Shown one piece after another: positions 1 through 11,206 of a stretch of 11,206 nt of DNA. The stretch spans positions 1 to 11,206 of the forward strand of contig JAIFNK010000254.1 of NCBI GenBank assembly GCA_020047775.1, read 5' to 3'. Made by a program: the position numbers and the translations under genes. Positions within the stretch are counted from its first letter, which is position 1. Each line of letters starts with the position of its first letter. The DNA comes from Akkermansia sp. Lineage in GTDB: Bacteria; Verrucomicrobiota; Verrucomicrobiia; Verrucomicrobiales; Akkermansiaceae. The notes under the pieces were generated by a model, which saw nothing but the letters and a program-made list of their open reading frames with translations, did not search any database and was not told where the DNA came from.

Positions 1-1081
1 CGAACTCTGGCAAGCCCGCGCGAACACGCCGGACCTCGCCCACCTCGCCGCCCGCCACGAGGCGACGCGCGGGCGTTTCATTTCCCCGGCGGATCTCGCG
101 CCGCTGCCGTTAAGAGTGCTTGTTTCGGTTTCCCGCGATCCGGCATCGCTGAAATTGCTGGATCTGTGGGGATTGAAAACGCTGGGCGATTTCATGAAGC
201 TGCCGCGCCAGGCATTGATCGAGCGGCTCGGGCCGGAGGTCGGGAAATGGCACGACCTGCTCCACGGGAAAACCTGCCGCCTGCTGCGGCTCCACCGGCC
301 GCCGGAATCGTTCGCGCAGTCGTTCGACTTCGAGGACGGCGTGATCGCGCTCGATCCCCTGGTTTTCGCGCTCAAGCGGCTGCTGCACACGCTCGCCGGA
401 CGGTTAGGCGCGCGCCATCTGGCGGCGGGTTCCCTGCACTTCCGGCTGATCCTGGAAACCGGCGGCGAGCTGGCGCGGCGCGTGCGCCTGCCCGAACCGC
501 AGACGGCGGTGGAGGGCATGTTGTCGCCGTTGCAAACCTTGCTGGAATCGCTCCGCCTCGACGCGGCAGTGGTCACCCTGCAGCTCGACGCGGAAACCAC
601 TTTCGCCACGGCGGCGCAGCGCGAGTGGTTCGGCCGCCACCTGCCGCAGCCGGAGCGCTGGGCGGAAACGCTGGCGAAACTGGAAGCTTTGTTAGGACAA
701 GGCCGGGTGGGGATTCCCCTGCCGCCCGAGTCTTTCCGCCCGGACTCCTTCACCCTCCACCCGGCGGCGGGACCGGCGTTGACCGGGCGGGCGTTTCTAC
801 CCGATTGCCCGGTGCCCCTACACCGCTTCCGGCCGCCGCGCGAAATCGCCGTGGCCTATGAATCGCACGACCGCCAACCGTGGCCGCTCGCGCTGCTCAA
901 CGGCCCACATCCCGGCGAAATCATCGACCGCCGCGGACCGTTTCCGGCGTCCGGCACGTGGTGGGATCCGGCCGGCACGTGGCAGCGGCTGGAGTGGGAC
1001 GTCCAACTCGCCAGCCGCCATCTGCTGCGGCTCGTTTTCCAAACCCCGGACCGCTGGCAGCTTGAGGGAGTCTATGGATGA
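1..1081 (+). CDS. imuB: ImuB, Y-family DNA polymerase-like subunit of the SOS mutasome (3' part)
   Basis: The frame is open from base 2 with no start, so the N-terminal palm/fingers part lies outside the window; about 359 residues remain. The visible part begins in the thumb region. It carries a helix-hairpin-helix-like stretch (L-W-G-L-K-T-L-G-D-F, then L-P-R-Q-A-L) around 166-215. It continues through the little-finger region to the family's usual C-terminal pattern: R-F-R-P-P near 827, G-P-F-P-A-S-G-T-W-W-D near 937-966, and W-Q-L-E-G-V-Y-G at the end. In known systems ImuB is catalytically inactive and bridges ImuA, DnaE2 and the beta clamp during damage-induced translesion synthesis. The catalytic region is not visible, so inactivity cannot be checked here. 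dnaE2, its normal partner, lies about 8.3 kb downstream on the same strand. Family assignment is firm; the gene symbol rests on the C-terminal pattern plus the nearby dnaE2. Confidence 0.9.
   Translation, partial: ELWQARANTPDLAHLAARHEATRGRFISPADLAPLPLRVLVSVSRDPASLKLLDLWGLKTLGDFMKLPRQALIERLGPEVGKWHDLLHGKTCRLLRLHRPPESFAQSFDFEDGVIALDPLVFALKRLLHTLAGRLGARHLAAGSLHFRLILETGGELARRVRLPEPQTAVEGMLSPLQTLLESLRLDAAVVTLQLDAETTFATAAQREWFGRHLPQPERWAETLAKLEALLGQGRVGIPLPPESFRPDSFTLHPAAGPALTGRAFLPDCPVPLHRFRPPREIAVAYESHDRQPWPLALLNGPHPGEIIDRRGPFPASGTWWDPAGTWQRLEWDVQLASRHLLRLVFQTPDRWQLEGVYG
1064..1080 (+). promoter_or_regulatory. Shine-Dalgarno-like GAGGGAG and ATGA overlap at the imuB end
   Basis: GAGGGAG at 1064-1070 lies 7 nt before the ATG at 1078, which overlaps the imuB TGA at 1079-1081. 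This is the usual layout for translational coupling and supports 1078 as an alternative start for the SNF2 gene (888 residues). The codon use of the added 24 codons argues against it. An ATG at 1074 in another frame gives only nine codons. Confidence 0.4.
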
Positions 1082-1149
1082 GACCAGCGAGGCGAAGAAG
1101 TGATTTGGGATTGCCGCCCGGTCAGACAACTCCGAGATTCCCCCCCGTC

Positions 1150-3744
1150 ATGCCCGCGAAAAAATCTCAGAAGAAGAAGAAACGCGCCGCGATCCCGCTT
1201 CCCCCGGCCTCCGATTGGCGCACCTCGGACCAGGATGAAATCCTCCGCCGCACCCAGCGCGCCATCGATGAGAAACACTCGGTCCGCAATCTGGATCCCG
1301 CACATCCCGTCTTCTCCAACTTCGGCGTGGTCTCGCCCAGCGGCATGGACTATCAGGTCGAAATCCGCGACCTCGCCACCCGCGATTTTTCCTGCACCTG
1401 CCCGGACTTCCGCATCAATGGCCTCGGCACCTGCAAACACGTGGAAGCCGTGCTCATCTGGCTCAAGCGCCGCTTCAAGGGCGAGGTGCGGCTGGCGGAG
1501 AAATCCGGCTCCACCCGCACCGACCTTGTCCCAAGCGGGGAGACCCTCGCCATTGCCCGCAACCTCGGAAACCTGCCTGCGTCCCTGCGCCCGCACTTCG
1601 ATTCCAACGGCGTTCTGATCGGAAATCCGGAGGAACACCTCGAAAAAATCCGCCGCAACCGCAGCCGGAGTTTCCGCATCTCCCAGGACGTCCACGGCTT
1701 TCTCGAATCCCGTCGCCACGCCGAGGAACGCCGCATCCTGCGCCGCGAATACGAAACCGGCGTCGTCGCGGGACGCCACCCGGAACACGTCACCCTCAGC
1801 CCGCTTTATCCCTATCAGCGCGAGGGCATGCTCCACCTCGCCTTCAACGGGCGCGCCCTGCTCGCCGATGAAATGGGCCTCGGAAAAACCATCCAGGCCA
1901 TCGCCGCCTGCGCCCTGCTCCACCACCTCGGGAAAGCGCGACGCGTGCTCGTCGTCACCCCCGCCTCGCTCAAGTCCGAGTGGGAGGAACAAATCCGCAA
2001 ATTCACCACTCTTTCCCAGCGACTCGTCTTCGGCCCCCGCACCACCCGTACGAGATGTTATGCCGACCCCGAGCCGCCCTTCTTCACCATCGTCAACTAC
2101 GAACAGGTCGTCACCGACTCGCTCGACATCAACGACAAGCTCAAGCCGGACATCGTCGTGCTCGACGAGGCCCAGCGCATCAAAAACTGGGCCACCAAGA
2201 CCGCCCAGGCCGTCAAACGCCTGCAAAGCCGCCACGCCTTCGTCCTCACCGGCACCCCCATCGAGAACCGCATCGACGAACTCTACTCCATCGTCGATTT
2301 CCTCGATCCCACGCTGCTCGGACCGTTGTTCCGCTTCAACCGCGACTTCTACCAGTTCGACGAAAAGGGCCGCCCGTCCGACTATCAGAATCTAGCGGCG
2401 CTCCGCGAGCGCGTCCGCCCCATCCTGCTCCGCCGCCGCAAGCACCACGTCGAGACCGAGCTTCCCGACCGCACCGACCGCAACCATTTCGTGAAACTCA
2501 CCGCCGCCATGCAGGCGGACTACGACGAGGTGAAGCGCCAGGTTTCCCAGCTCATCCAGGCGTCCATGCGCCGCCCGCTGAAGAAGAGCGAGCAGGACCT
2601 CGTCATGATCCTGCTAGGCATGATGCGCATGATCTGTGATTCCCCCTCCATCATCAAAAACCGCGATTGCCAGGACTGCCCCAAGCTCGACGAACTCGGC
2701 CCCATCCTCGACGAAGCGCTCTCCGATCCCGACGTCAAAATCATCGTCTTCTCCGAGTGGGAAGGCATGCTCAAAAAAGTCCGCGCCTGGGCGGATAGAA
2801 ACGGCGTCGGCTACGCATGGCACACCGGCAGCGTGCCCCAGCAGAAACGCCGGGGTGAAATCACCGCCTTCCGCGAGGATCCCGCTTGCCGCCTCTTCCT
2901 CAGCACCGATTCCGGCGGCGTCGGCCTCAACCTCCAGAACGCCAGCGTCGTCATCAACTGCGACCTGCCGTGGAACCCCGCCCGTCTCGAACAACGCATC
3001 GCCCGGGCCTGGCGAAAACACCAGACGCGCCCTGTCACCGTCATCAACCTCATCGCCGGGAACACCCTCGAACACATGATGCTCGAGACCCTCGCCACCA
3101 AGATGAACCTCGCCGAGGGCGTGCTCGACGGCTCCGAAAAATCCCTCAGCCAGGCCAAGCTCAAGCGCGGTCGCGAAGCCAACCTCGCCCGCCTCCAACA
3201 GATTCTATCCATCACTCCGGAGGGAAAACCCGCGACCAAGGCCCCGCCCGCCGATCCCGCCCTCGCCTTTGCGGAACGCGCCGCCACCACCCTCGGAAAC
3301 GCCCTGCTCCACTGCCAGGAAGCCATGCTCCCCGGCCAGGCCGAACCCGTCATCCTCACCGTCCTGCGCGATCCGCAACGCGCCGCCGCCGTCTCCGCGC
3401 TCTTCCACGAGACCGACTGGCACGGCAATCCCCCGCAACTCCACGTCCTCGACGAAAGCACCTGGGCTTCCCTGCAAGCCCTCGTTTCCGCCGGGCTCAT
3501 CACCCTCAACACCCGCGCCACCCGCTCGTTGACCGGCGATGCTCCACCCCCGCAAAAGCCGGCCCTCACCCCCGAACAACTCCAGCGCATCGCCGACCTC
3601 CGCGCCTTCGCCGCCAGGAAACATAAAGTCGCACGACTCCTCATCGAGAGCGACCTCGCCGAAGAAGCCGAACCGCACCAAAAAGCTGCGGACAAAGCGC
3701 TGGCGGAGGCGGAAGGGATTGAGAATGGAAATTGCCCAACCTAA
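1150..3744 (+). CDS. SWIM zinc-finger SNF2/RapA-family DEAD/DEAH-box ATPase (helicase-like)
   Basis: The product has 864 residues from the ATG at 1150. In order, it has a lysine-rich start (K-K-S-Q-K-K-K-K), then a SWIM zinc finger C82-x-C84-x10-C95-x-H97. The SNF2 ATPase core follows: Walker A L-A-D-E-M-G-L-G-K-T (238-247), Walker B D-E-A-Q (339-342), and motif III T-G-T-P (367-370). The helicase C lobe has I-V-F-S-E-W, S-T-D-S-G-G-V-G-L-N-L-Q and an arginine-finger region Q-R-I-A-R-A-W-R-K-H-Q ending near 625. A tail of about 190 residues has no recognised domain. SNF2 proteins use ATP to translocate on DNA and remodel nucleoprotein; the SWIM finger suggests DNA or protein binding. The frame extends upstream to an ATG at 1078 that overlaps the imuB stop (ATGA) behind a GGGAG. 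Those 24 extra codons use AGA, AGG, CGA and ACA, unlike the CGC/CTC/GCC-rich body, so 1150 is preferred although it has no clear Shine-Dalgarno. Its role (SOS operon member or defence gene) is unknown. Confidence 0.9.
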   Translation: MPAKKSQKKKKRAAIPLPPASDWRTSDQDEILRRTQRAIDEKHSVRNLDPAHPVFSNFGVVSPSGMDYQVEIRDLATRDFSCTCPDFRINGLGTCKHVEAVLIWLKRRFKGEVRLAEKSGSTRTDLVPSGETLAIARNLGNLPASLRPHFDSNGVLIGNPEEHLEKIRRNRSRSFRISQDVHGFLESRRHAEERRILRREYETGVVAGRHPEHVTLSPLYPYQREGMLHLAFNGRALLADEMGLGKTIQAIAACALLHHLGKARRVLVVTPASLKSEWEEQIRKFTTLSQRLVFGPRTTRTRCYADPEPPFFTIVNYEQVVTDSLDINDKLKPDIVVLDEAQRIKNWATKTAQAVKRLQSRHAFVLTGTPIENRIDELYSIVDFLDPTLLGPLFRFNRDFYQFDEKGRPSDYQNLAALRERVRPILLRRRKHHVETELPDRTDRNHFVKLTAAMQADYDEVKRQVSQLIQASMRRPLKKSEQDLVMILLGMMRMICDSPSIIKNRDCQDCPKLDELGPILDEALSDPDVKIIVFSEWEGMLKKVRAWADRNGVGYAWHTGSVPQQKRRGEITAFREDPACRLFLSTDSGGVGLNLQNASVVINCDLPWNPARLEQRIARAWRKHQTRPVTVINLIAGNTLEHMMLETLATKMNLAEGVLDGSEKSLSQAKLKRGREANLARLQQILSITPEGKPATKAPPADPALAFAERAATTLGNALLHCQEAMLPGQAEPVILTVLRDPQRAAAVSALFHETDWHGNPPQLHVLDESTWASLQALVSAGLITLNTRATRSLTGDAPPPQKPALTPEQLQRIADLRAFAARKHKVARLLIESDLAEEAEPHQKAADKALAEAEGIENGNCPT

Positions 3745-3752
3745 TTCCCGGC

Positions 3753-3781
3753 TTGCATGGCCAAACAAGATGGTGAACATT
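3753..3781 (+). promoter_or_regulatory. Possible promoter of the LexA-like regulator operon
   Basis: TTGCAT (3753-3758) and AACATT (3776-3781) are separated by 17 nt. The -35 is moderate and the -10 is weak (3 of 6). With this pair, transcription would begin about 3788, almost at the ATG at 3792, giving a leaderless or nearly leaderless mRNA. The -10 would lie inside the operator palindrome, so repressor binding would block polymerase. It is supported mainly by position. Confidence 0.3.
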
Positions 3782-3789
3782 TGTTCACC
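3772..3789 (+). promoter_or_regulatory. LexA-type operator, perfect palindrome GGTGAACA-TT-TGTTCACC
   Basis: Two 8-bp arms, exact inverted repeats, flank a TT centre and end 2 nt before the start codon of the LexA-like gene. The core GAAC-ATTT-GTTC fits the GAAC-N4-GTTC form of the Bacillus-type SOS box. The half-sites (GAACA/TGTTC) are the same as in the box before dnaE2 but in the opposite order. Its place right at the start of a LexA-family gene makes autoregulation the natural reading. Whether the bound protein is this gene's product or the chromosomal LexA cannot be told from sequence. Confidence 0.75.
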
Positions 3790-3791
3790 CA

Positions 3792-4400
3792 ATGCCTCGT
3801 TCCGAATCCAACCCGAAGGAAACACTTCTCTCCTTCCTTGAGAAGCTGGAGGCGGCGGGTTCGCCTCCGCCCTCGATTCGCGAAGTTTGCCAATGCCTCG
3901 GCTACCAAAGCACCAATGCCGCCATGAAACTGATCCGCCGGATGCAGGCGGGTGAACAGCTGATCTACGATGCCGGTTGCTCCAGAAGCCTACGCCTTGC
4001 GAAGAAAGCCAAGACCGGCGTTCCCCTTCTTGGCTCGATTGCGGCCGGTTTTCCCGACACACAAGATTTGGAGCAAGCCGAACAACTCCAACTCGATCCC
4101 ACCACCTTCGACATCAAAAACCCGGCGGATGCCTTCGCCCTACGAGTTCGCGGCGACTCCATGACCGGCAGAAAATTTTTCGACGGCGACCTCGTTCTTT
4201 TGGATCGCTCCGCCACGCCAAAAAACCAAGATGTCGTCGCCGCTTTGATCGATCAGGAATGCACCCTGAAAACCCTGGTCATCAAAAACGGCAAAGCCTT
4301 TCTGAAAGCGGAAAATCCCGCCTACCCCGACCTCATCCCCGCCCATGACCTGCAAATCCAAGGAGTCGCCAAAGCCGTGATCCGCATTCTCACCGCCTGA
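3792..4400 (+). CDS. LexA-like self-cleaving transcriptional repressor (S24 peptidase family)
   Basis: The product has 202 residues, the same length as E. coli LexA. Residues 1-70 form a LexA-type winged helix: P-P-S-I-R-E-V, then the recognition helix S40-T-N-A-A-M-K46. The C-terminal half is an S24 peptidase domain with the scissile pair A85-G86, the nucleophile S123 in G-D-S-M, and the general base K160 in C-T-L-K-T-L. All are at LexA-like positions, so RecA-stimulated self-cleavage is expected. At the E. coli DNA-contact sites N41, A42, E44 and E45 it has N, A, M and K, so its target should differ from the CTG-N10-CAG box. An in-frame TGA at 3774 forces the start to 3792 or later. No Shine-Dalgarno is possible because the operator fills that space. 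Its TGA overlaps the methyltransferase ATG (TGATG), making it the first gene of a coupled operon. It may be the host's own LexA or a dedicated module regulator; I favour the latter because of the operon, but only moderately. Confidence 0.9.
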   Translation: MPRSESNPKETLLSFLEKLEAAGSPPPSIREVCQCLGYQSTNAAMKLIRRMQAGEQLIYDAGCSRSLRLAKKAKTGVPLLGSIAAGFPDTQDLEQAEQLQLDPTTFDIKNPADAFALRVRGDSMTGRKFFDGDLVLLDRSATPKNQDVVAALIDQECTLKTLVIKNGKAFLKAENPAYPDLIPAHDLQIQGVAKAVIRILTA

Positions 4401-7400
4401 TGTCCTCAGCCAGTCCATCCCCTGTCCGCCCGCTGGAGCAGCGCCTCGCCGCGTTCGGGTGCACCGACTTCATTCGTTTGGATGGCAAACTATCGGATCC
4501 GGAGCAACTCGACTATCTCGATCTTCTTCCCAAACGCTCGACTCAGAAGCCGCTAGTAAGCGCGGTGGCCGAGAATCAGGGAACCGCCCTCCTCTACATC
4601 TTGGATGCTTGCGATGATCTGAAATGCGATCCCATTTCCCTCTCCGTCATCAGCCGCCAACTCGCGAATCGCAGCGACCCCGCCTGGCTCGGAGTGGTTC
4701 ATCCTGGGTCATTGGAAATTTTCCCCATCGGCTTTCACGAATCCGCGAGTACGGCCCCGGTAAAAACCATCAAGGCGGACAGCATCTCCGCGCCTCTGTT
4801 TTTCCAGAGTCTGGTCCACGGCACTTTCGAAGAAAACCATCGCCTCCACGGAACGGATTACGTCTTCCGGAAAATCTTCGATCTCCTTACTCAAACCACC
4901 AACGCCTTCGTGCCCAGCCGCATCGACGCGCTGGAAGTGCTCTCGATGACCGGACGAGCTTTGTTCTTCCGCTTTCTGATCGACCGCCGGATCGTTCTGG
5001 AAAACGAAACCACCGACATCTGTCCCGCGTCAGCTGACCTGAAAGACGCGTTTTCCACCGCCGAAGCCGCCGCGCAAACTTCTGCTTGGCTCGATGAAAC
5101 CTTCAACGGTGATTTCCTGCCGCTTATCGACGAGGAGATTCCCGCCGGAGACCGAAAAGCCCGTCAAGCCGCTTACCTCCGTTTCTATCAGCGGACCCGG
5201 CATCTCGTCGGCAAGAAAATCTTCGACCACCTTCAAGCCATTCTCAAAGGTTGGCGCGCAGTCGGCGGTGGCATTCAAACCGAGCTCGACTGGGGCGATC
5301 TCGATTTCGCCCACATCCCGGTTGGCGTGCTGAGTCAGGTGTATGAAAGCTTCAGCCATCGGGCGGACACCCGGACCGCCAAGGACACCAGCGTCCACTA
5401 CACTCCCCGCACCATCGCGGACCTGATGGTGAAAGAATCCTTCGCCGCTCTAAAGAATCCAGCGGCTGCACAGGTGCTGGACCCATCATGCGGAGCCGGG
5501 ATCTTCCTCGTGCTCGCCTTCCGAAGGTTGGTCCGCGAGCGCTGGCAGCACGACGAGGAACGGCCGAATACCAAGGTCATTCAGGAAATCCTCTATCAGC
5601 AATTGTGTGGCTTTGATGTTAGCGAACCCGCGCTCCGCCTGGCAGCCCTCGCGCTCTACATCACCGCCATCGAGGTCAATGGCAGCCCGAGGCCGCCGCG
5701 TTCCCTCAAGTTCCCGCGCAATCTCAGGGGCGAGGTGCTGCATCGCTTCGGCAACGATGAAGACGGACCTAACAGCGCCACCGCATTCTCGCTCGGCAGT
5801 CTCGGCCCGGATGTGTCACCTGAATTCAATGGCCGTTTTGATATCGTCATCGGCAACCCTCCATGGACACGTCTCCGCGAAAACCCCGCCCAAGACGACG
5901 AAGAGCCAAAGGGCAAATCCAAGACGGACGAACTGAACGAAGCTTTCACTCAAATCGGCAAGCGTGTGCTTACGGCTAGAGGCTTCCCCGAACTGGCGAA
6001 AGCCTATCAGAATCCGGACAAGAATCCCGATCTGCCCTTCCTCTGGCGGGCCACGGAATGGGCGAAGCCAAAGTCAAAAGGAAGCGACCCCGGAATCATC
6101 GCCTTGGCCATGCCGGCCCGCTTGTTCGGCCGCACCAGCGGCAAAGGCTTCGAGGCCTGGCGGGCGATCCTGCAGAGCGTCGAAACGACAGGCCTGTTGA
6201 ACTGTGCCGATCTTCGAAAAACCGCCGTCTGGGAAGGCGTGGATATGCCGGCCTGCGTTTGGTTTGCAAGAAATGCCGTGCCGACGGAAGACCACCGTTT
6301 CCAATACTCCACTCCGCTTTACGAGCAACGCCCGAATGAACGGGGTCTTTTCCGGATCGATTACGAAACATCGCAAGCCCTTAGCATTGCACTAGTGGAG
6401 AAACAGCCTTGGTTGCTTAAGACACTGTCATTGGGCACGTGGCTGGATGTCGTGATCTTGGAACAGTTGCTGAACTCGTCATTCGAAACCTTGGAAATTT
6501 CGTGGTCGCATTGGGACGAGAAGCTTATCAAGACGGGAAAAGGGTATGATCGCTCTCCTTCAAGAACCCAGAGCAAAAAGGACTTCTTAGCGGAGATGCT
6601 AGATTTTATTCCGTCTGAGCAGGGTTTCGCGATTCCATGGGAGGATCTCAAAACCTATGAGAAGAATCACAAGACAAAACATGCAGCTTGGCCCCGACGG
6701 GAAGAAATTTACCAGTCACCGCTGGTAATCATACCGCAATCACCTGGGGAGGAAGAGAAAACTCCACACGCCTACCTATCTCAAAGGGCTATAGCGTATT
6801 CACAGAGCTACTACGGATACTCCTGCGCCGGATATCCAGATGCCGACACGCTCGCCGCGCTCATTTATCTTCTGCCTCACTCAAAGTTCTTCGCCTACTT
6901 TTGCCTGATGACCAGCCGCCGCAGTGGTTTCGACAGGCAAACGTTCAACAAGGAGGAGTTTGATGCGCTTCCATTCCCTGATTTGAAGAAACTTCCCTCC
7001 GCCACCAAATCCAAAATCCGCAAGCTCGCCCATCGACTGGAACATGACCTCGTCAAACCGTGGGACGAAATCGATTCATTCATCTTCCATCTTTACGGCC
7101 TTGATGACGATGCCGTTCAGGTTGCTAAAGACACGCTCTTTTCCGCCGCGTCCTACCGCAGGGCGGGCAAGGCGGCCTTGGATCGCACGATGCCCGAGAC
7201 ACGTGTGGATTTCCTCCAGACGCTTCGCGAAGAACTGAATCCCTACTTCGATGTTTGTGGCGAGAGCGTCGAAGTTCTCGAACCGGAGAAACAGCCCGGC
7301 GAATGGCGCGAACCTTGGTTCTTCCTGACCGTATCCAGAAAGTCCATCGAAGTCCCCTTCAATCCAGGCCTGCTTCGTGAAGCGATGAAACTGGCCAACC

Positions 7401-7564
7401 AGCGGGGTTCCAGTCGGATCATCGTCCAAGCTCCGGGCAAGCGCGGTCTGCTGCTAGGGCTCTTGAACCAACGCCGCTGGTGGACCAAGACCAGAGCGCG
7501 TCTCTGTGCCCAGCACATCATCCGCCAACACCTCTGTGCATTCGGACTCCCGGAAACAGAATGA
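4400..7564 (+). CDS. Large N6-adenine DNA methyltransferase, Eco57I/type IIG-like
   Basis: The product has 1054 residues. An N-terminal accessory region (1-320) leads to S-V-H-Y-T-P-R-T-I-A-D-L-M (near 330-343). Next come the SAM-binding motif D361-P-S-C-G-A-G367 and the catalytic N486-P-P-W489 in D-I-V-I-G-N-P-P-W, the signature of class gamma N6-adenine methyltransferases. A likely target-recognition region (about 655-830) is followed by F-D-A-L-P-F-P-D, common in Eco57I-type enzymes. A further 125 residues (about 930-1054) are of unknown role. It should methylate adenine in a specific site, protecting host DNA. Residues near 50-110 loosely recall the N-terminal domain of type IIG enzymes, but I see no intact (D/E)XK there, so cleavage is probably left to the next gene. 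The start overlaps the regulator stop, and the stop overlaps the next start. Bases 6541-6780 are only 48% G+C, against 63% for 5461-5700, suggesting exchange of the specificity region. Confidence 0.88.
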   Translation: MSSASPSPVRPLEQRLAAFGCTDFIRLDGKLSDPEQLDYLDLLPKRSTQKPLVSAVAENQGTALLYILDACDDLKCDPISLSVISRQLANRSDPAWLGVVHPGSLEIFPIGFHESASTAPVKTIKADSISAPLFFQSLVHGTFEENHRLHGTDYVFRKIFDLLTQTTNAFVPSRIDALEVLSMTGRALFFRFLIDRRIVLENETTDICPASADLKDAFSTAEAAAQTSAWLDETFNGDFLPLIDEEIPAGDRKARQAAYLRFYQRTRHLVGKKIFDHLQAILKGWRAVGGGIQTELDWGDLDFAHIPVGVLSQVYESFSHRADTRTAKDTSVHYTPRTIADLMVKESFAALKNPAAAQVLDPSCGAGIFLVLAFRRLVRERWQHDEERPNTKVIQEILYQQLCGFDVSEPALRLAALALYITAIEVNGSPRPPRSLKFPRNLRGEVLHRFGNDEDGPNSATAFSLGSLGPDVSPEFNGRFDIVIGNPPWTRLRENPAQDDEEPKGKSKTDELNEAFTQIGKRVLTARGFPELAKAYQNPDKNPDLPFLWRATEWAKPKSKGSDPGIIALAMPARLFGRTSGKGFEAWRAILQSVETTGLLNCADLRKTAVWEGVDMPACVWFARNAVPTEDHRFQYSTPLYEQRPNERGLFRIDYETSQALSIALVEKQPWLLKTLSLGTWLDVVILEQLLNSSFETLEISWSHWDEKLIKTGKGYDRSPSRTQSKKDFLAEMLDFIPSEQGFAIPWEDLKTYEKNHKTKHAAWPRREEIYQSPLVIIPQSPGEEEKTPHAYLSQRAIAYSQSYYGYSCAGYPDADTLAALIYLLPHSKFFAYFCLMTSRRSGFDRQTFNKEEFDALPFPDLKKLPSATKSKIRKLAHRLEHDLVKPWDEIDSFIFHLYGLDDDAVQVAKDTLFSAASYRRAGKAALDRTMPETRVDFLQTLREELNPYFDVCGESVEVLEPEKQPGEWREPWFFLTVSRKSIEVPFNPGLLREAMKLANQRGSSRIIVQAPGKRGLLLGLLNQRRWWTKTRARLCAQHIIRQHLCAFGLPETE

Positions 7565-8307
7565 GCGACGCCCGCACAGCCGGATTCTTCACTCTAGGGG
7601 TTCCGCCGGAGCGCTATCATCTTCCGCATCCACGACTCGGGCTGCCAGTCATCCTCCTCATCCGCCGGGTGCTGATCCGGGCGTTGGAGTTGCTTCGTGA
7701 ACAACAATTCCGACTCGCCGATGCCAGCGAGGACGAAGTCACCGCCGCACTGCGCAGCATTATTGAAAATGACCTTCGGGAAGCGGGAAGCGTCGCCGGT
7801 TTTAACAAACGCAGCTACGAGCCCGTGGTCCGCCAGGGCCAGTGGGCGAACTACAACGGAGCCGTCCTCACCAAGACCCCGGACATGTGTTTCAAGCTGC
7901 GCCATGACGAAAGCGAATCCCGCCCTGTCATCCCCGAATTCGACGCCTTGTTCGTGGAATGCAAACCCGCGGATGCCACACATCCGGCGGGTTCAAAATA
8001 CTGCGACGACGGACTCATTCGTTTCGTCCGCGGCGACTACGCGTGGGCCATGCAGGAAGGAATGATGTTGGCGTTCGCCCGCGACGGGCGGACAATTGCC
8101 AAAAACCTCATCCCCACGATGTCTGAGTCCGCCCGCATGCAGTCACTGCACACCTTGGAGCTTCCCACTGCAACAACATGCAGCATGCCAACCGCTAGTG
8201 CTAAACCAGTCCACATCAGTCGTCACAAGAGAACTTTTTCATGGCTTCATGGCAAAGGGCCGGCCACCGACATCACGATCTATCACTTGTGGCATGACTG
8301 CGGATGA
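7561..8307 (+). CDS. PD-(D/E)XK nuclease-like protein, probable restriction partner of the methyltransferase
   Basis: The product has 248 residues from the ATG at 7561, which overlaps the methyltransferase TGA (ATGA) and follows a GGAA at 7552-7555. I do not recognise a named family, but a nuclease core can be read. An acidic helix I-E69-N-D-L is followed by P107-D108, and then E133-x-K135 in F-D-A-L-F-V-E-C-K-P, 24 residues after D108. This is the order and spacing of PD-(D/E)XK enzymes. Next comes G-S-K-Y-C-D-D-G-L-I-R-F-V and a helix A-W-A-M-Q-E-G-M-M-L-A, then a C-terminal I-S-R-H and T-D-I-T-I-Y-H-L-W-H. Tight coupling to an adenine methyltransferase suggests it is the restriction subunit. 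The longer frame from 7480 would lie inside the upstream gene and is unlikely. It could instead be a non-nucleolytic structural partner; the motif reading is by eye. It is the last gene of the operon. Confidence 0.8.
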   Translation: MSDARTAGFFTLGVPPERYHLPHPRLGLPVILLIRRVLIRALELLREQQFRLADASEDEVTAALRSIIENDLREAGSVAGFNKRSYEPVVRQGQWANYNGAVLTKTPDMCFKLRHDESESRPVIPEFDALFVECKPADATHPAGSKYCDDGLIRFVRGDYAWAMQEGMMLAFARDGRTIAKNLIPTMSESARMQSLHTLELPTATTCSMPTASAKPVHISRHKRTFSWLHGKGPATDITIYHLWHDCG

Positions 8308-8314
8308 ACGAGTG

Positions 8315-8340
8315 GCCTCGTATTCAGGAGGCTCGCTTTT
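8315..8340 (+). terminator. Weak possible terminator after the defence operon
   Basis: A 5-bp stem GCCTC/GAGGC with an 8-nt loop is followed after a few bases by TTTT (8337-8340). It lies 8 nt after the stop of the nuclease gene. The stem is short and the T-run is short and offset, so this is a weak candidate chosen mostly for position. Confidence 0.25.
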
Positions 8341-8398
8341 CGGAAAACCGCGCTGCACCGATTTTCGGGTTTTCGGTAGGCGCATGTCCTTGTCAGCA

Positions 8399-8429
8399 CG
8401 CAAACTCGCTATTGTGCGGGCGAGTTGCG
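8399..8429. repeat. Inverted repeat, 10-bp hairpin with one bulged base
   Basis: CGCAA(A)CTCGC at 8399-8409 pairs with GCGAGTTGCG at 8420-8429 around a 10-nt loop, with a single extra A (one of 8402-8404) in the left arm. There is no T-run on either side, so it is not a standard intrinsic terminator. It lies upstream of the antitoxin promoter and could be an RNA hairpin, a protein-binding site or a remnant of mobile DNA. Confidence 0.5.
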
Positions 8430-8452
8430 GACGCCATAGAAGGATCACCAGC

Positions 8453-8480
8453 TTGACGGAAAACCCTGTTCCGGTAGGGT
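8453..8480 (+). promoter_or_regulatory. Promoter with overlapping palindromes for the VapB-like gene
   Basis: TTGACG (8453-8458, 5 of 6 to the -35 consensus) and TAGGGT (8475-8480, 3 of 6 to the -10) are spaced by 16 nt, with the ATG at 8488. Two overlapping inverted repeats lie inside: CGGAA-N7-TTCCG (8457-8473) and ACCCT-N8-AGGGT (8463-8480). A ribbon-helix-helix antitoxin dimer binding these would give the usual antitoxin autoregulation. The leader would be very short. Confidence 0.45.
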
Positions 8481-8487
8481 ATGCCGC

Positions 8488-8724
8488 ATGAAAACCACCA
8501 TCGATATTCCGGAAGGGCTGTATCGCCGGGCCGAGATCCACGCGGTGGAAACAGGGCGCACTCTGAAGGACTTGGTGCTCACTTCATTGGAAAAGGAACT
8601 CGATCTCTCCTCCATGCCGCAAATCTCCCCCACCTGGGCGAACCGCAAATTACGACCTGATTTCGAAGCCGCCCTGAAAGCCGGGGCCTTCGCCGGAGGC
8701 ACGAATTCCGCCGTCATGATTTAA
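8488..8724 (+). CDS. VapB-like antitoxin, without an adjacent toxin gene
   Basis: The product has 78 residues. The N-terminus M-K-T-T-I-D-I-P-E-G-L-Y-R-R-A-E, followed by E-T-G-R-T-L-K-D-L-V-L, is the familiar VapB/ribbon-helix-helix-like pattern: a beta strand for DNA binding, then two helices. The C-terminal half (from about residue 38) would normally wrap the VapC PIN-domain RNase. Here the frame ends N-S-A-V-M-I-stop. The 25 bases after it lead straight into the 3' end of a minus-strand gene, so no toxin gene follows. It may be a solitary antitoxin, a remnant whose toxin was lost, or a regulator acting in trans. Its promoter (8453-8480) looks intact, which favours an expressed gene. The family call is good; its role is unclear. 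Confidence 0.75.
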   Translation: MKTTIDIPEGLYRRAEIHAVETGRTLKDLVLTSLEKELDLSSMPQISPTWANRKLRPDFEAALKAGAFAGGTNSAVMI

Positions 8725-8749
8725 GAAGACAGATTTTAGCACGAGCACC

Positions 8750-9169
8750 CTACTCCGCTTCCGTTTCAGGCGCGGCGAAGGGGTTCCGCTTGCCGACGAC
8801 CACAAAATGCCGGGACCATGCCTCCTCGATCAGGTGTTCCCCGCTGCGGGAAAAGCGCAGGTGATGCTTGCGGTGTTGATAGACGGTTTGTGATGGCTTG
8901 AGATTCAGGTCGTGGGCGTGAAAACGAAGCAGGCGCAGGATGCGGCCGCCACGGGTGAGGTTGCAGCGGATCACGCGTTCGAGACAGGGAAGCTGGCCCT
9001 GTTTCCAGCGTTCGAGATCGGCGGGCACCAGCAGGCCCATTTCGACGAAAAGTTCGACGGGGGCCACGAAACGCTTGCGGGCGAGGATACGTGAAACCGC
9101 CAACACGATCCGCGGGAAATCCTTGAACTCGCGGTAGTTGGCGACGGAGGGCTTTTGGGGGTCAGGCAT
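8750..9169 (-). CDS. Conserved protein of unknown function
   Basis: The product has 139 residues from the ATG at 9169 (complement); a TTG at 9205 would give 151. I do not know a function. The pattern resembles small uncharacterised bacterial proteins as I remember them. It has F-P-R-I-V-L-A-V-S-R-I-L-A near the start and a helical segment P-V-E-L-F-V-E-M-G-L-L. Then come L-P-C-L-E-R-V-I-R-C-N-L, L-K-P-S-Q-T-V-Y and L-R-F-S-R-S-G with I-E-E-A-W-S-R-H-F near the end. It is basic and probably cytoplasmic, with no signal peptide or membrane segment. It converges on the VapB-like gene (25 nt between the stops) and diverges from dnaE2 across a region holding a LexA box. The codons carry consistent conserved-protein texture, so it is probably real. 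The start and promoter are uncertain. Confidence 0.7.
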   Translation of the reverse strand: MPDPQKPSVANYREFKDFPRIVLAVSRILARKRFVAPVELFVEMGLLVPADLERWKQGQLPCLERVIRCNLTRGGRILRLLRFHAHDLNLKPSQTVYQHRKHHLRFSRSGEHLIEEAWSRHFVVVGKRNPFAAPETEAE

Positions 9170-9268
9170 CGGCACGAAATGAACATGATGTCGATTCCGG
9201 GCCAATAAAAATCATTGGGATCACCCGCTGCATTTTCCTCCACCAAGCCGAAGCGCATCCAAAAAAAC

Positions 9269-9282
9269 TGTTCGATTGAACA
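9269..9282 (+). promoter_or_regulatory. LexA box TGTTC-GATT-GAACA upstream of dnaE2
   Basis: This is an exact 14-bp TGTTC-N4-GAACA palindrome, the LexA-binding form I recall being reported for Verrucomicrobia. It overlaps the -35 element of a good promoter and lies 82 nt before the dnaE2 start. dnaE2 is a classical SOS gene, so LexA repression is the obvious reading. Confidence 0.85.
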
Positions 9283-9303
9283 TTTTCTCGGATGGCCTAA
9301 AAT
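9276..9303 (+). promoter_or_regulatory. dnaE2 promoter
   Basis: TTGAAC (9276-9281, 4 of 6 to the -35 consensus) and TAAAAT (9298-9303, 5 of 6 to TATAAT) are spaced by 16 nt. Transcription would start near 9310. The -35 lies within the LexA box, so bound LexA would block polymerase. dnaE2 can thus be induced independently of imuB. Confidence 0.65.
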
Positions 9304-9307
9304 CGGG

Positions 9308-9367
9308 ATGAGAACGATGGATGAGATGGAATTTCAACGAATGGGAAACACCCAAGGCGAACGATGA
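9308..9367 (+). CDS. Possible 19-residue leader ORF coupled to dnaE2
   Basis: The frame from the ATG at 9308 (alternative ATG at 9317, 16 residues) ends in a TGA at 9365-9367 that overlaps the dnaE2 ATG as ATGA. The peptide is Met- and Glu-rich and matches nothing I know. With a transcript starting near 9310, only the 9317 start would be used. It may let dnaE2 be translated by coupling, or it may be chance. There is no clear Shine-Dalgarno for it. Confidence 0.3.
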   Translation: MRTMDEMEFQRMGNTQGER

Positions 9368-11206
9368 ACGCGCCTTTTGTAGAGTTGCACGCGCATTCCG
9401 CGTTTTCATTTTTGGAGGGCGCGAGCCAGCCTGAAGCGATGATCCGCCGGGCGGCGGAGCTGGGTTACGACAGCATCGCCATCACCGACCGGATGGGATT
9501 TTACGGCTCCGCCCGCGCCCATCACGCCGCCAAGGAGTGCGGGATCCGCGCGATGGTCGGCTGTTTGCTGGATTTGCCGGATGGAACAAGGTTTCCCGTG
9601 CTCTGCGCCACGCGTGACGGCTACCGGATGTTGTCCCGCCATCTCACGGATCATCATTTGCAGCAAGGCGAGGCGCGTGAATTTCCGCGGACGGGAAATC
9701 ATTTGTTAGCTCTCACCGGTGACCGCGACGGTCCGCTGTGCCGGCCCTTGCTGGCGAATGACCGGCCCGCCGCGTTGCTCGCCGCCGAGCGCTTGGTCCG
9801 GCTTTTCGGCCAGGGAAATGTTTATGTGGAACTCACCCGCCACGGCCTGCGCGACGATGGGCGTCTGAACCGCCAGCTCGTCGATCTGGCAGCCCACCTC
9901 CGGTTGCCGTTGTTAGCCAGTAACGCACCGCTTCACGCCACCCGCGGCGAGCGGCGGCTGGCGGATGCCTTCGCCTGTCTGCGCCATCATCTGCCGCTCG
10001 ACCGTGCGGGGCGATTGCTGGCACCGAATGGCGAGCGGCATCTCAAGGCGCCGGCTGAAATGACCGCACTCTTCGCTGACCTGCCAGAGGCGGTTAAGAA
10101 CACGCGCCGCCTTGCCGAGCGGATTGGCTTCACGCTGGAAAACCTCGACTACCGCTTTCCCGATTTTCCCGATGGCCGGGGAAATCCCTTGTCGGTTAAC
10201 GAACAAACGATGTTGTTGCGGCGTCATGCTTACGCCGGGGCTTCGCGTCGCTACGGCGTCTGTAGTAAGAAGGTGAAAAACCAGTTGGAGCACGAGCTGG
10301 CGATGATCCATCGCCTGGGATTTCCCGGGTATTTCCTGATCGTCCACGACCTGGTGGAATTCGCACGCGGGCGGGGCATCCTTTGCCAAGGCCGGGGGTC
10401 CGCCGCGAACTCGGTGGTTTGTTATGCGCTCGGCATCACCGCCGTGGATCCGGTGGGCGGCGGGTTGTTGTTCGAGCGGTTTCTATCCGAGAATCGCAAA
10501 AGCTGGCCGGACATCGACATCGACTTCCCCTCGGGCGGGCGCCGCGAGGAGGTGATCCAGCACGTCTTCAAAAAATACGGCGCGCGCAACGCGGCGATGA
10601 CCGCCAACGTCATCACCTACCGGTCGAAATCCGCGTTCCGGGAGATGAGCAAGGTGCTCGGTTTCCCGCCGTCGGTGGCGGAACGGTTTTCCGGAGGTGC
10701 ATCGTCATTCCGCGACGAGGACTCGGCGGAAACCACCCGCGAGGCGCGGTTCGAGGAACGCATCGCGAGCATCCTGCCGCCGTCGCACCCGCGGCTGCCG
10801 GCTCTGGTCCATCTCTATCAGTCGGTGCTCGGCATGCCGCGCCACCTCGGCCAGCATTCCGGCGGAATGATCGTCTGCGACCACGGGCTCGATGCGGTCG
10901 TCCCGCTGCAACCGGCGACCATGCCCGGACGCACCGTGGTGCAGTGGGACAAGGACGATTGCGAGGACATGGGTATCGTGAAGATTGATCTGCTAGGACT
11001 CGGCATGCTCGCGGCGATGGAACACGCGCTGGAAATCCGCTCGCGCCGCGGCCAACCGGTGGACCTCGCGACGATCCCGAAGGACGACCCCGCGGTTTTC
11101 GAAATGCTCTGCCGCGCGGACACCATCGGCACCTTCCAGGTCGAGAGCCGGGCGCAGATGGCCACGCTGCCGATCATGCGGCCGCAGACGTTTTACGATC
11201 TCGCCA
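9364..11206 (+). CDS. dnaE2: Error-prone DNA polymerase III alpha subunit DnaE2/ImuC (5' part)
   Basis: The frame runs open from the ATG at 9364 to the right edge (614 codons; the family is usually about 1,000-1,100). AAGG at 9354-9357 gives a Shine-Dalgarno 6 nt before the start. The PHP domain comes first: V-E-L-H-A-H-S-A-F-S-F-L-E-G-A-S (H9, H11), I-T-D-R near 40, and S-N-A-P-L-H-A near 189. The polymerase core follows with G343-R-G-S-A-A-N-S350, the catalytic P-D-I-D385-I-D387-F, G-Q-H-S-G-G-M-I-V near 500, and M-G-I-V-K-I-D542-L-L-G-L. All three palm aspartates expected of an active C-family polymerase are present. DnaE2 carries out damage-induced translesion synthesis with ImuA and ImuB, and its gene is LexA-controlled in most bacteria. 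It normally follows imuB directly, but here 8.3 kb intervene and it has its own LexA-boxed promoter. Confidence 0.93.
   Translation, partial: MNAPFVELHAHSAFSFLEGASQPEAMIRRAAELGYDSIAITDRMGFYGSARAHHAAKECGIRAMVGCLLDLPDGTRFPVLCATRDGYRMLSRHLTDHHLQQGEAREFPRTGNHLLALTGDRDGPLCRPLLANDRPAALLAAERLVRLFGQGNVYVELTRHGLRDDGRLNRQLVDLAAHLRLPLLASNAPLHATRGERRLADAFACLRHHLPLDRAGRLLAPNGERHLKAPAEMTALFADLPEAVKNTRRLAERIGFTLENLDYRFPDFPDGRGNPLSVNEQTMLLRRHAYAGASRRYGVCSKKVKNQLEHELAMIHRLGFPGYFLIVHDLVEFARGRGILCQGRGSAANSVVCYALGITAVDPVGGGLLFERFLSENRKSWPDIDIDFPSGGRREEVIQHVFKKYGARNAAMTANVITYRSKSAFREMSKVLGFPPSVAERFSGGASSFRDEDSAETTREARFEERIASILPPSHPRLPALVHLYQSVLGMPRHLGQHSGGMIVCDHGLDAVVPLQPATMPGRTVVQWDKDDCEDMGIVKIDLLGLGMLAAMEHALEIRSRRGQPVDLATIPKDDPAVFEMLCRADTIGTFQVESRAQMATLPIMRPQTFYDLA

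Follow-up and report, generated by a model that had tools for sequence, protein, structure and literature searches.

Organization of the LexA-headed operon

The window, i.e., the whole stretch of 11,206 nucleotides (nt) of contig JAIFNK010000254.1 of Akkermansia sp. (assembly GCA_020047775.1) that was analyzed, harbors three overlapping genes coding, respectively, for a LexA-like autoprotease repressor, a predicted N6-adenine DNA methyltransferase, and a predicted PD-(D/E)XK nuclease, with a candidate operator just upstream. Judging from their sequences and distribution, these genes probably constitute a mobile, autoregulated, and RecA-responsive restriction-like operon endowed with its own LexA-type switch and operator. 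Distant bacteria show the same gene order with LexA proteins of different lineages, which suggests that this module, likely directed against phages, is turned up upon DNA damage. The features of the module are the following:

3772..3789, no strand: operator-like palindrome GGTGAACA-TT-TGTTCACC, 2 nt ahead of the lexA-like ATG at 3792
3792..4400, + strand: LexA-like S24 autoprotease repressor, 202 amino acids (aa), with the A85-G86 cleavage site and the S123/K160 dyad
4400..7564, + strand: N6-adenine DNA methyltransferase, 1054 aa, CamA/MmeI/BrxX-like, with a target-recognition part
7561..8307, + strand: PD-(D/E)XK nuclease, 248 aa, with invariant E57, P107-D108, and E133-x-K135

A preliminary description of the same DNA had already proposed the operator, the LexA-like gene with its A-G site and Ser/Lys dyad, the two gene overlaps, the N6-adenine methyltransferase, and the PD-(D/E)XK motif of the third gene; all of them were confirmed. 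The product of the first gene can be aligned with LexA over most of its length (Peptidase_S24, 1.3e-26), and its residues A85-G86, S123, and K160 are in register with those of E. coli LexA. It is referred to as LexA-like because it scores just under the curated LexA cut-offs, with 109.7 bits for TIGR00498 lexA (cut-off 110.95) and 18.8 bits for LexA_DNA_bind (cut-off 23.7); TIGR00498 is passed by the module LexAs of 27/27 other genomes. This gene overlaps the methyltransferase gene at TGATG (4398-4402), which in turn overlaps the nuclease gene at ATGA (7561-7564).

The predicted N6-methyladenine (m6A) methyltransferase matches N6_Mtase (1.6e-10), Eco57I (9.6e-9), and MmeI_Mtase (6.7e-8) and carries a GNPPW motif at residues 485-489; its family and fold fit a sequence-specific enzyme of a restriction-modification system. 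No E-x-K motif was seen in its N-terminal domain when the alignment was inspected by eye. As for the nuclease, no family was found in Pfam, NCBIfam, PADLOC, or PHROG at the limits used. Among the aligned relatives having a letter at the position concerned, E57 is conserved in 76/76, P107 and D108 in 77/77, and E133 and K135 in 78/78 sequences (eight repeat loci omitted; without L130 the counts are 75, 76, and 77, with the same result). The predicted structure (mean predicted local distance difference test, pLDDT, 78.9) has its best VIA matches in BglII, OkrAI, BamHI, McrBC, Card1, and Shedu. Foldseek alone gave no match at E 0.001 and an uninformative list of top entries, the comparison of the nuclease profile with the sequences of the Protein Data Bank gave none at E 1, and the Pfam search on 33 members of the family retrieved only scattered weak matches (best 0.0089, in at most three members each). 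The PD-(D/E)XK residues, the VIA fold matches, and the coupling of the genes fit a putative cognate endonuclease. At E 1e-3, the two families comprise 932 nuclease relatives and at least 2303 methyltransferase relatives.

Recurrence of the module

Sixty-six loci were disclosed when the nuclease alignment was used to search genome contigs. A LexA-like open reading frame (ORF) is located directly upstream of, and in line with, the methyltransferase gene in 29 of the 56 loci having at least 600 nt before this gene (one of the 29, L047, is a fragment), and it is missing in the other 27; the loci left out are two without a methyltransferase match, six in which this gene starts less than 300 nt from the contig end, and two with 300-600 nt. 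Eight further loci were retrieved from sampled genomes, and LexA is present in five of them (L127, L130, L134, L138, and L139) and not in L135, L137, and L140. Thus, the triplet whose recurrence had been proposed as a check does recur, the rows examined being distributed over Acidobacteriota, Pseudomonadota, Thermodesulfobacteriota, Myxococcota, Nitrospinota, Kiritimatiellota, and Verrucomicrobiota. When the flanking genes were clustered, the LexA family turned out to be common to 32 loci and every other flanking family to at most five. For the clade of the window itself, equal contig size was taken as a proxy for a shared contig; on this basis, one of the 56 best LexA rows has a counterpart of the same size for 13 of the 21 best rows of the methyltransferase and for 11 of the 39 best rows of the nuclease. 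The genome of Geobacter sp. UBA6151 contains two LexA-headed triplets (L034 and L042). In a plasmid of Pseudomonas (NZ_CP017887.1; L091:4412-8618), no LexA is present and a 151-aa ORF, helix-turn-helix (HTH)-like by eye, overlaps the pair by 4 nt; it is perhaps an alternative regulator in the place of LexA.

The genes are tightly coupled: the distance between the lexA stop and the methyltransferase start ranges from -13 to +3 nt in 30/31 loci, and that between the methyltransferase stop and the nuclease start from -38 to +10 nt in 68/69 loci (starts were picked mechanically, and the counts exclude duplicates, the second family, and any locus whose methyltransferase ORF is broken). The leading position of the methyltransferase gene within the pair and its direct coupling to lexA might indicate that the SOS response raises the methyltransferase mainly for host protection: repair synthesis and damaged forks give unmodified DNA, which extra methylation would save from self-cutting, the nuclease merely following by coupling. 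According to the accessible portion of PMC12255303, Type I systems are known to undergo restriction alleviation once the DNA is damaged. Nevertheless, the nuclease gene is coupled just as tightly and hence would be raised too, which makes this explanation quite improbable.

Host LexA and operators

The source draft genome (3.06 Mb in 337 contigs, 57% complete) encodes a second LexA on contig C223, sharing 42% identity with the LexA-like protein of the window. The sequence TGTTC-N4-GAACA, which we take to be the LexA box of Verrucomicrobia, was found upstream of this host lexA, of recA (contig C335), and of the dnaE2 gene of the window, and it occurs at five sites of the genome versus two for a control pattern; a literature search for this box string gave no match. 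The exact sequence GTGAAC-N4-GTTCAC, on the other hand, has a single occurrence in the 3.06 Mb, at 3772-3789. Since recA, lexA, and dnaE2 carry the other box and the window operator is unique, the protein of the window can be considered LexA-like rather than the host LexA.

The possibility that the module protein is the sole LexA of its host, which the preliminary description had left as a potential refutation, does not hold for most of the other genomes either: a further LexA, full-length or nearly so, was found in 20/27 module-bearing genomes, the seven without it including Malonomonas rubra DSM 5091. This survey concerned 27 of the 29 LexA-bearing loci (omitted were the fragment L047 and L042, whose genome is that of L034). 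These further LexAs include incomplete ones, aligned from profile position 9-29 onward, and ones located at the head of a second triplet or of a second-family module; at L041, a second match was counted as the module's own owing to a coordinate coincidence; all 20 genomes keep at least one further LexA. RecA was found in 9/9 genomes tested. Close copies of the window LexA are rare, being detected in 2/244 family genomes at E 1e-45 (the window and a second-family locus), and LexAs of about 40% identity are present in 238/386 order genomes at E 1e-30.

The window palindrome consists of two perfect 8-bp arms around TT, for a total of 18 bp. When the 200 bp upstream were subjected to 1000 dinucleotide shuffles, 66 of these reached its score; as a palindrome alone it is, therefore, only moderately unusual and not striking, and the case for it as a candidate operator is carried by its place, its uniqueness, and the parallel existing in other loci. 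Indeed, TACTG-N10-CAGTA (presumably the E. coli LexA box), spotted by lining the promoters up on their start codons, is present with at most two mismatches in 32 of the 36 module lexA promoters other than that of the window, compared with an expectation of 1.8 derived from stretches picked at random in these loci; the box was first noticed on those same promoters, so that its discovery and this count are not independent. The four promoters without it are those of L041, which has a symmetric CCG/CGG variant, and of three loci of a second family (see below), which carry ACTATAC-N4-GTATAGT with one, two, and no mismatches just ahead of the start codon. A single universal operator was rejected, GAAC-N4-GTTC being found at the window only. 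The generic palindrome score of the module promoters was mostly not significant against shuffles, and the promoters of the LexA-less members revealed no clear host box (6/34 versus 2.5 expected). Among 25 other lexA promoters, the exact TGTTC-N4-GAACA is present in four, all from module-bearing genomes, i.e., those of L187 (the window genome), L181, L182, and L184. Since in these Verrucomicrobia it is the host lexA that carries this box, the operators of module and host differ within one cell.

LexA lineages and a second family of modules

A phylogenetic tree of 101 LexA proteins (L047, duplicates, and LexA matches shorter than 150 aa omitted) placed the module LexAs in three positions. The first is a clade of 32 module LexAs, which also includes two LexAs of genome G669 on a long branch; these similar proteins (L179 and L180) have no adjoining methyltransferase. 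The second is the clade of the window, together with the second family, and the third is represented by L056, beside another LexA. A single clade of the 34 first-family module LexAs was rejected by the approximately unbiased (AU) test (p-AU 2.2e-5); the group tested was set by gene context, and the two subtypes had already been seen in an earlier alignment. The tree of the methyltransferases shows the window clade nested among proteins headed by LexAs of the large clade, and L056 placed among LexA-less sisters (the clade label of 13 database rows rests on the same-sized-contig proxy). The simplest reading of the two trees would be that of one old LexA-headed module, with the window lineage having swapped in a Verrucomicrobial LexA together with a new operator, a gain of LexA in L056, and several losses. 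The fact that LexAs of different lineages head the same methyltransferase-nuclease pair suggests selection for a link between DNA damage and restriction.

In the second family (genomes G462, G187, and G654), a LexA of the window type overlaps the gene of a 1066- to 1104-aa methyltransferase, only distantly related to that of the window (73-84 bits). Next to it, with an ATGA junction, is the gene of a 213- to 228-aa protein, in which a D..E-x-K pattern was recognized by eye. The nuclease of this family was found in 5/386 order genomes (G654 being outside that draw). Three other loci (L226-L228) contain a second-family methyltransferase and, as judged by search matches, the nuclease, without LexA, so that LexA is present in three of the six second-family loci seen.

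The A-G cleavage site, the Ser, and the Lys are retained in all the module LexAs (34/34), in those of the second family (3/3), and in 55/55 further homologues. This conservation bears on a different explanation, according to which LexA would work, like a C protein, as a set-point or establishment timer that maintains a low steady level and allows a methyltransferase burst in a naive host, the cleavage promoted by RecA being minor or accidental. The position of the operator at the start of lexA and the tight coupling would fit such an autoregulation, and a dedicated repressor also heads other restriction operons, as exemplified by RptR in the available part of PMC12255303. Yet a timer would leave the protease free to decay, contrary to what is observed, and LexAs of different lineages head the pair; we thus consider this explanation unlikely.

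On the same contig as the triplet of L017 (a Limisphaerales bin) and about 16 kb from it, an S24/LexA-like gene lies a few bp before a cyclic-oligonucleotide-based anti-phage signaling system (CBASS) operon containing a SAVED-HNH effector, a CD-NTase, and an E2 (L172:2932-6331). By eye, its product has a C-G cleavage site, the Ser, and the Lys.

A broader reading is that self-cleaving repressors of the LexA type are recurrent, module-owned immune switches, repeatedly captured from different lineages, each one with its own operator, and heading unrelated defense operons, i.e., the two methyltransferase-nuclease families and the CBASS operon of one locus, with an operator that in Verrucomicrobia is distinct from the host SOS box. 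We advance it tentatively, the arguments for and against such private SOS circuits being almost balanced. If it were true, cells would possess private SOS circuits, one per defense module, all reading the same RecA signal.

Proposed mechanism and its evaluation

The mode of action that we infer, which includes repression, cleavage, induction, docking, restriction, and phage defense, can be outlined as follows. In the undamaged cell, the LexA-like protein, presumably as a dimer, would sit on the operator and hold the three-gene message low. RecA would then be activated on single-stranded DNA resulting from damage, phage replication, or the module's own cuts, and the activated RecA would induce the repressor to cut itself between A85 and G86, thus lifting repression and allowing all three proteins to rise together through translational coupling. 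The methyltransferase would mark a specific adenine site, and the separate nuclease would cut unmarked DNA, probably docked on the methyltransferase in replacement of its worn-out N-terminal nuclease domain. Because in this host the operator of the module differs from that of the host LexA, the module would here answer the RecA signal outside the host regulon. A puzzling aspect is the expected repression of the protective methyltransferase along with the nuclease; it would be sufficient, for solving it, that basal expression is leaky, or that the nuclease needs its methyltransferase partner, or that the extra methylation is protective during repair.

The preliminary description had viewed the operon as placed under an SOS switch, with LexA replacing the C protein of restriction-modification operons. 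This view is partly supported: as far as sequences can tell, the recurrence of the triplet, the further LexA of the genome, the kept cleavage residues, and the lineage-conserved operators all speak for it. The joint rise of methyltransferase and nuclease upon damage, and an action against phages, would be its predictions, and the replacement of a C protein is conjectural, as 27/56 relatives are devoid of LexA and one plasmid copy has a small HTH-like ORF in that position.

Two observations weigh against a RecA-responsive module with a switch of its own. Firstly, TACTG-N10-CAGTA is also present, with at most two mismatches, in five of the 25 other lexA promoters (L171, L174, L189, L191, and L196), and for this reason module and host LexA may share sites in some other hosts. 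Secondly, 14 close relatives of the window LexA, on contigs of at least 9 kb, have no partner among the matches listed, which indicates that this type of LexA is not bound to this pair alone. Both points lower our confidence in the proposed mechanism and in the existence of private circuits.

The partner-less relatives, the LexA-less loci, and the seven genomes without a second LexA might even be taken as an indication that an ordinary methyltransferase-nuclease pair just happens to adjoin lexA, or that this lexA is that of the host itself. However, the genes overlap, LexA is the sole widely recurrent neighbour found, it has its own operator, and hardly any genome of the family has a close copy of it; moreover, the host LexA of the window genome is encoded elsewhere and has another box. 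An incidental association is thus very improbable in general, and for the window it was rejected on the basis of the host LexA of C223 with its own box, of the unique operator, and of the recurrence of the arrangement.

Genomic context of the module

The genes flanking the RecA-responsive module proposed here, and the host-type box associated with them, are the following:

2..1081, + strand: left flank of the island, consisting of the 3' portion of an imuB-like gene related to Y-family polymerases, with weak Pol IV matches (best 3.9e-7)
1150..3744, + strand: SNF2/SWIM helicase gene (SNF2-rel_dom 2.7e-43, Helicase_C 1.7e-21), outside the conserved triplet
9269..9282, no strand: TGTTCGATTGAACA, host-type LexA box ahead of dnaE2, distinct from the module operator
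9364..11206, + strand: dnaE2 (error-prone polymerase; NF004225, 1.7e-202), right flank of the island, truncated by the window end

The name imuB is assigned on the basis of the position ahead of dnaE2. In 10 stretches of the same genus, from nine genomes (L200-L202 and L204-L210), an imuB homologue is followed by dnaE2, the aligned ends of the two genes being 2-14 nt apart in eight stretches and 123 and 179 nt apart in the other two; neither the helicase nor LexA, the methyltransferase, or the nuclease was found in these 10 stretches, two of which are only about 3 kb long. Since the two genes are contiguous, or nearly so, in these relatives, the island of the window (1082-9363), which comprises the helicase gene, the module, and the small ORFs behind it, interrupts an imuB-dnaE2 mutasome operon. 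All eight longer stretches of the relatives have one LexA box 1.6-2.2 kb before the imuB end, and the dnaE2 of the window has its own box. The guanine-cytosine (GC) content of the triplet is 56.5-58.6%, versus 63.9-68.3% for imuB, SNF2, and dnaE2, and the presence of the module is patchy (4/288 and 12/386 genomes); both features would be compatible with mobility. A phage or plasmid origin appears weak, with no phage record, five plasmid records all below 40% identity, and one viral contig.

The ORF of the helicase is open from 1078, with a likely start at 1150. This gene was rejected as a fourth core gene of the module because a match was found only in L028 among the 69 loci, plus L226. In the latter (L226:2186-8124, genome G488 of the same genus), the SNF2 helicase homologue (1529 bits) is located directly ahead of a second-family methyltransferase, without LexA; on this basis, modules of this kind may have the helicase as a partner or as an anchor for insertion. 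Between the nuclease gene and dnaE2 there is about 1 kb of DNA containing small ORFs. One of them (8488-8724) codes for 78 aa and is ribbon-helix-helix antitoxin-like by eye, with no toxin adjoining and no match in Pfam or NCBIfam; another (8750-9205) codes for 151 aa on the opposite strand.

Comparison with known systems

The methyltransferase shares its fold with BpuSI, DrdV, MmeI, and BrxX, i.e., with Type IIG, MmeI-like, and BREX PglX proteins. In the window, however, the nuclease is encoded by a separate coupled gene and the N-terminal domain of the methyltransferase shows no E-x-K, unlike Type IIG enzymes; as regards BREX, the best score was 33.6 of 900 bits, and the clustering of the flanks gave no conserved partner besides LexA. 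The C proteins of Type II systems are small HTH proteins without an S24 domain, encoded by an early gene of the operon and autoregulatory. The module resembles them in the early, presumably autoregulatory gene and differs in that this gene codes for a 202-aa LexA/S24 protein. In CapH/CapP and CapW/WYL, a separate metallopeptidase or WYL sensor is used, and in E. coli symE is located in the hsd restriction region.

The SymE/LexA pair of E. coli, in which a toxin gene is repressed by LexA, as reported in the accessible part of PMC3874152, differs from the module because the control is exerted by the host LexA and not by a LexA carried by the module. RptR of Type I restriction islands, as far as described in the available portion of PMC12255303, is similar in being a promoter-proximal dedicated repressor with its own conserved palindrome, present in many genomes; it is, however, a small HTH-like dimer, and neither a protease domain nor induction by damage is described there.

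According to the portion of PMC13373217 available, CapK/CapS, CapH/CapP, and CapW/WYL are DNA-damage-responsive repressor systems heading immune operons, some of them beside restriction-modification genes. Its main text nowhere mentions LexA, S24, or SOS. No PADLOC family was assigned to the LexA-like protein, and the flanks were analyzed by clustering only, with no scan with CapK/CapS, CapH/CapP, or WYL models. A LexA-headed restriction or defense operon was not found among the titles and abstract openings covered by the literature search. The control of immune operons by DNA damage is already known, and it is the LexA-headed version of it that this search did not disclose.

The module shares with CapK/CapS and related systems a repressor that heads the operon and is, in the module, putatively damage-linked, as well as the use of the same regulators with different effectors. 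It differs from CapK/CapS, which is a kinase with a phosphorylated repressor (PMC13373217, same portion), in having an S24 repressor made of one chain that carries its own cleavage site. If the proposed mechanism is correct, a repressor of its own that reads RecA, together with its operator, would put restriction under the direct influence of the general signal of DNA damage, to which replicating phages and the cuts made by the module itself may both give rise, and, in this genome, would do so apart from the host SOS regulon; this would be relevant to how restriction operons rise during infection.

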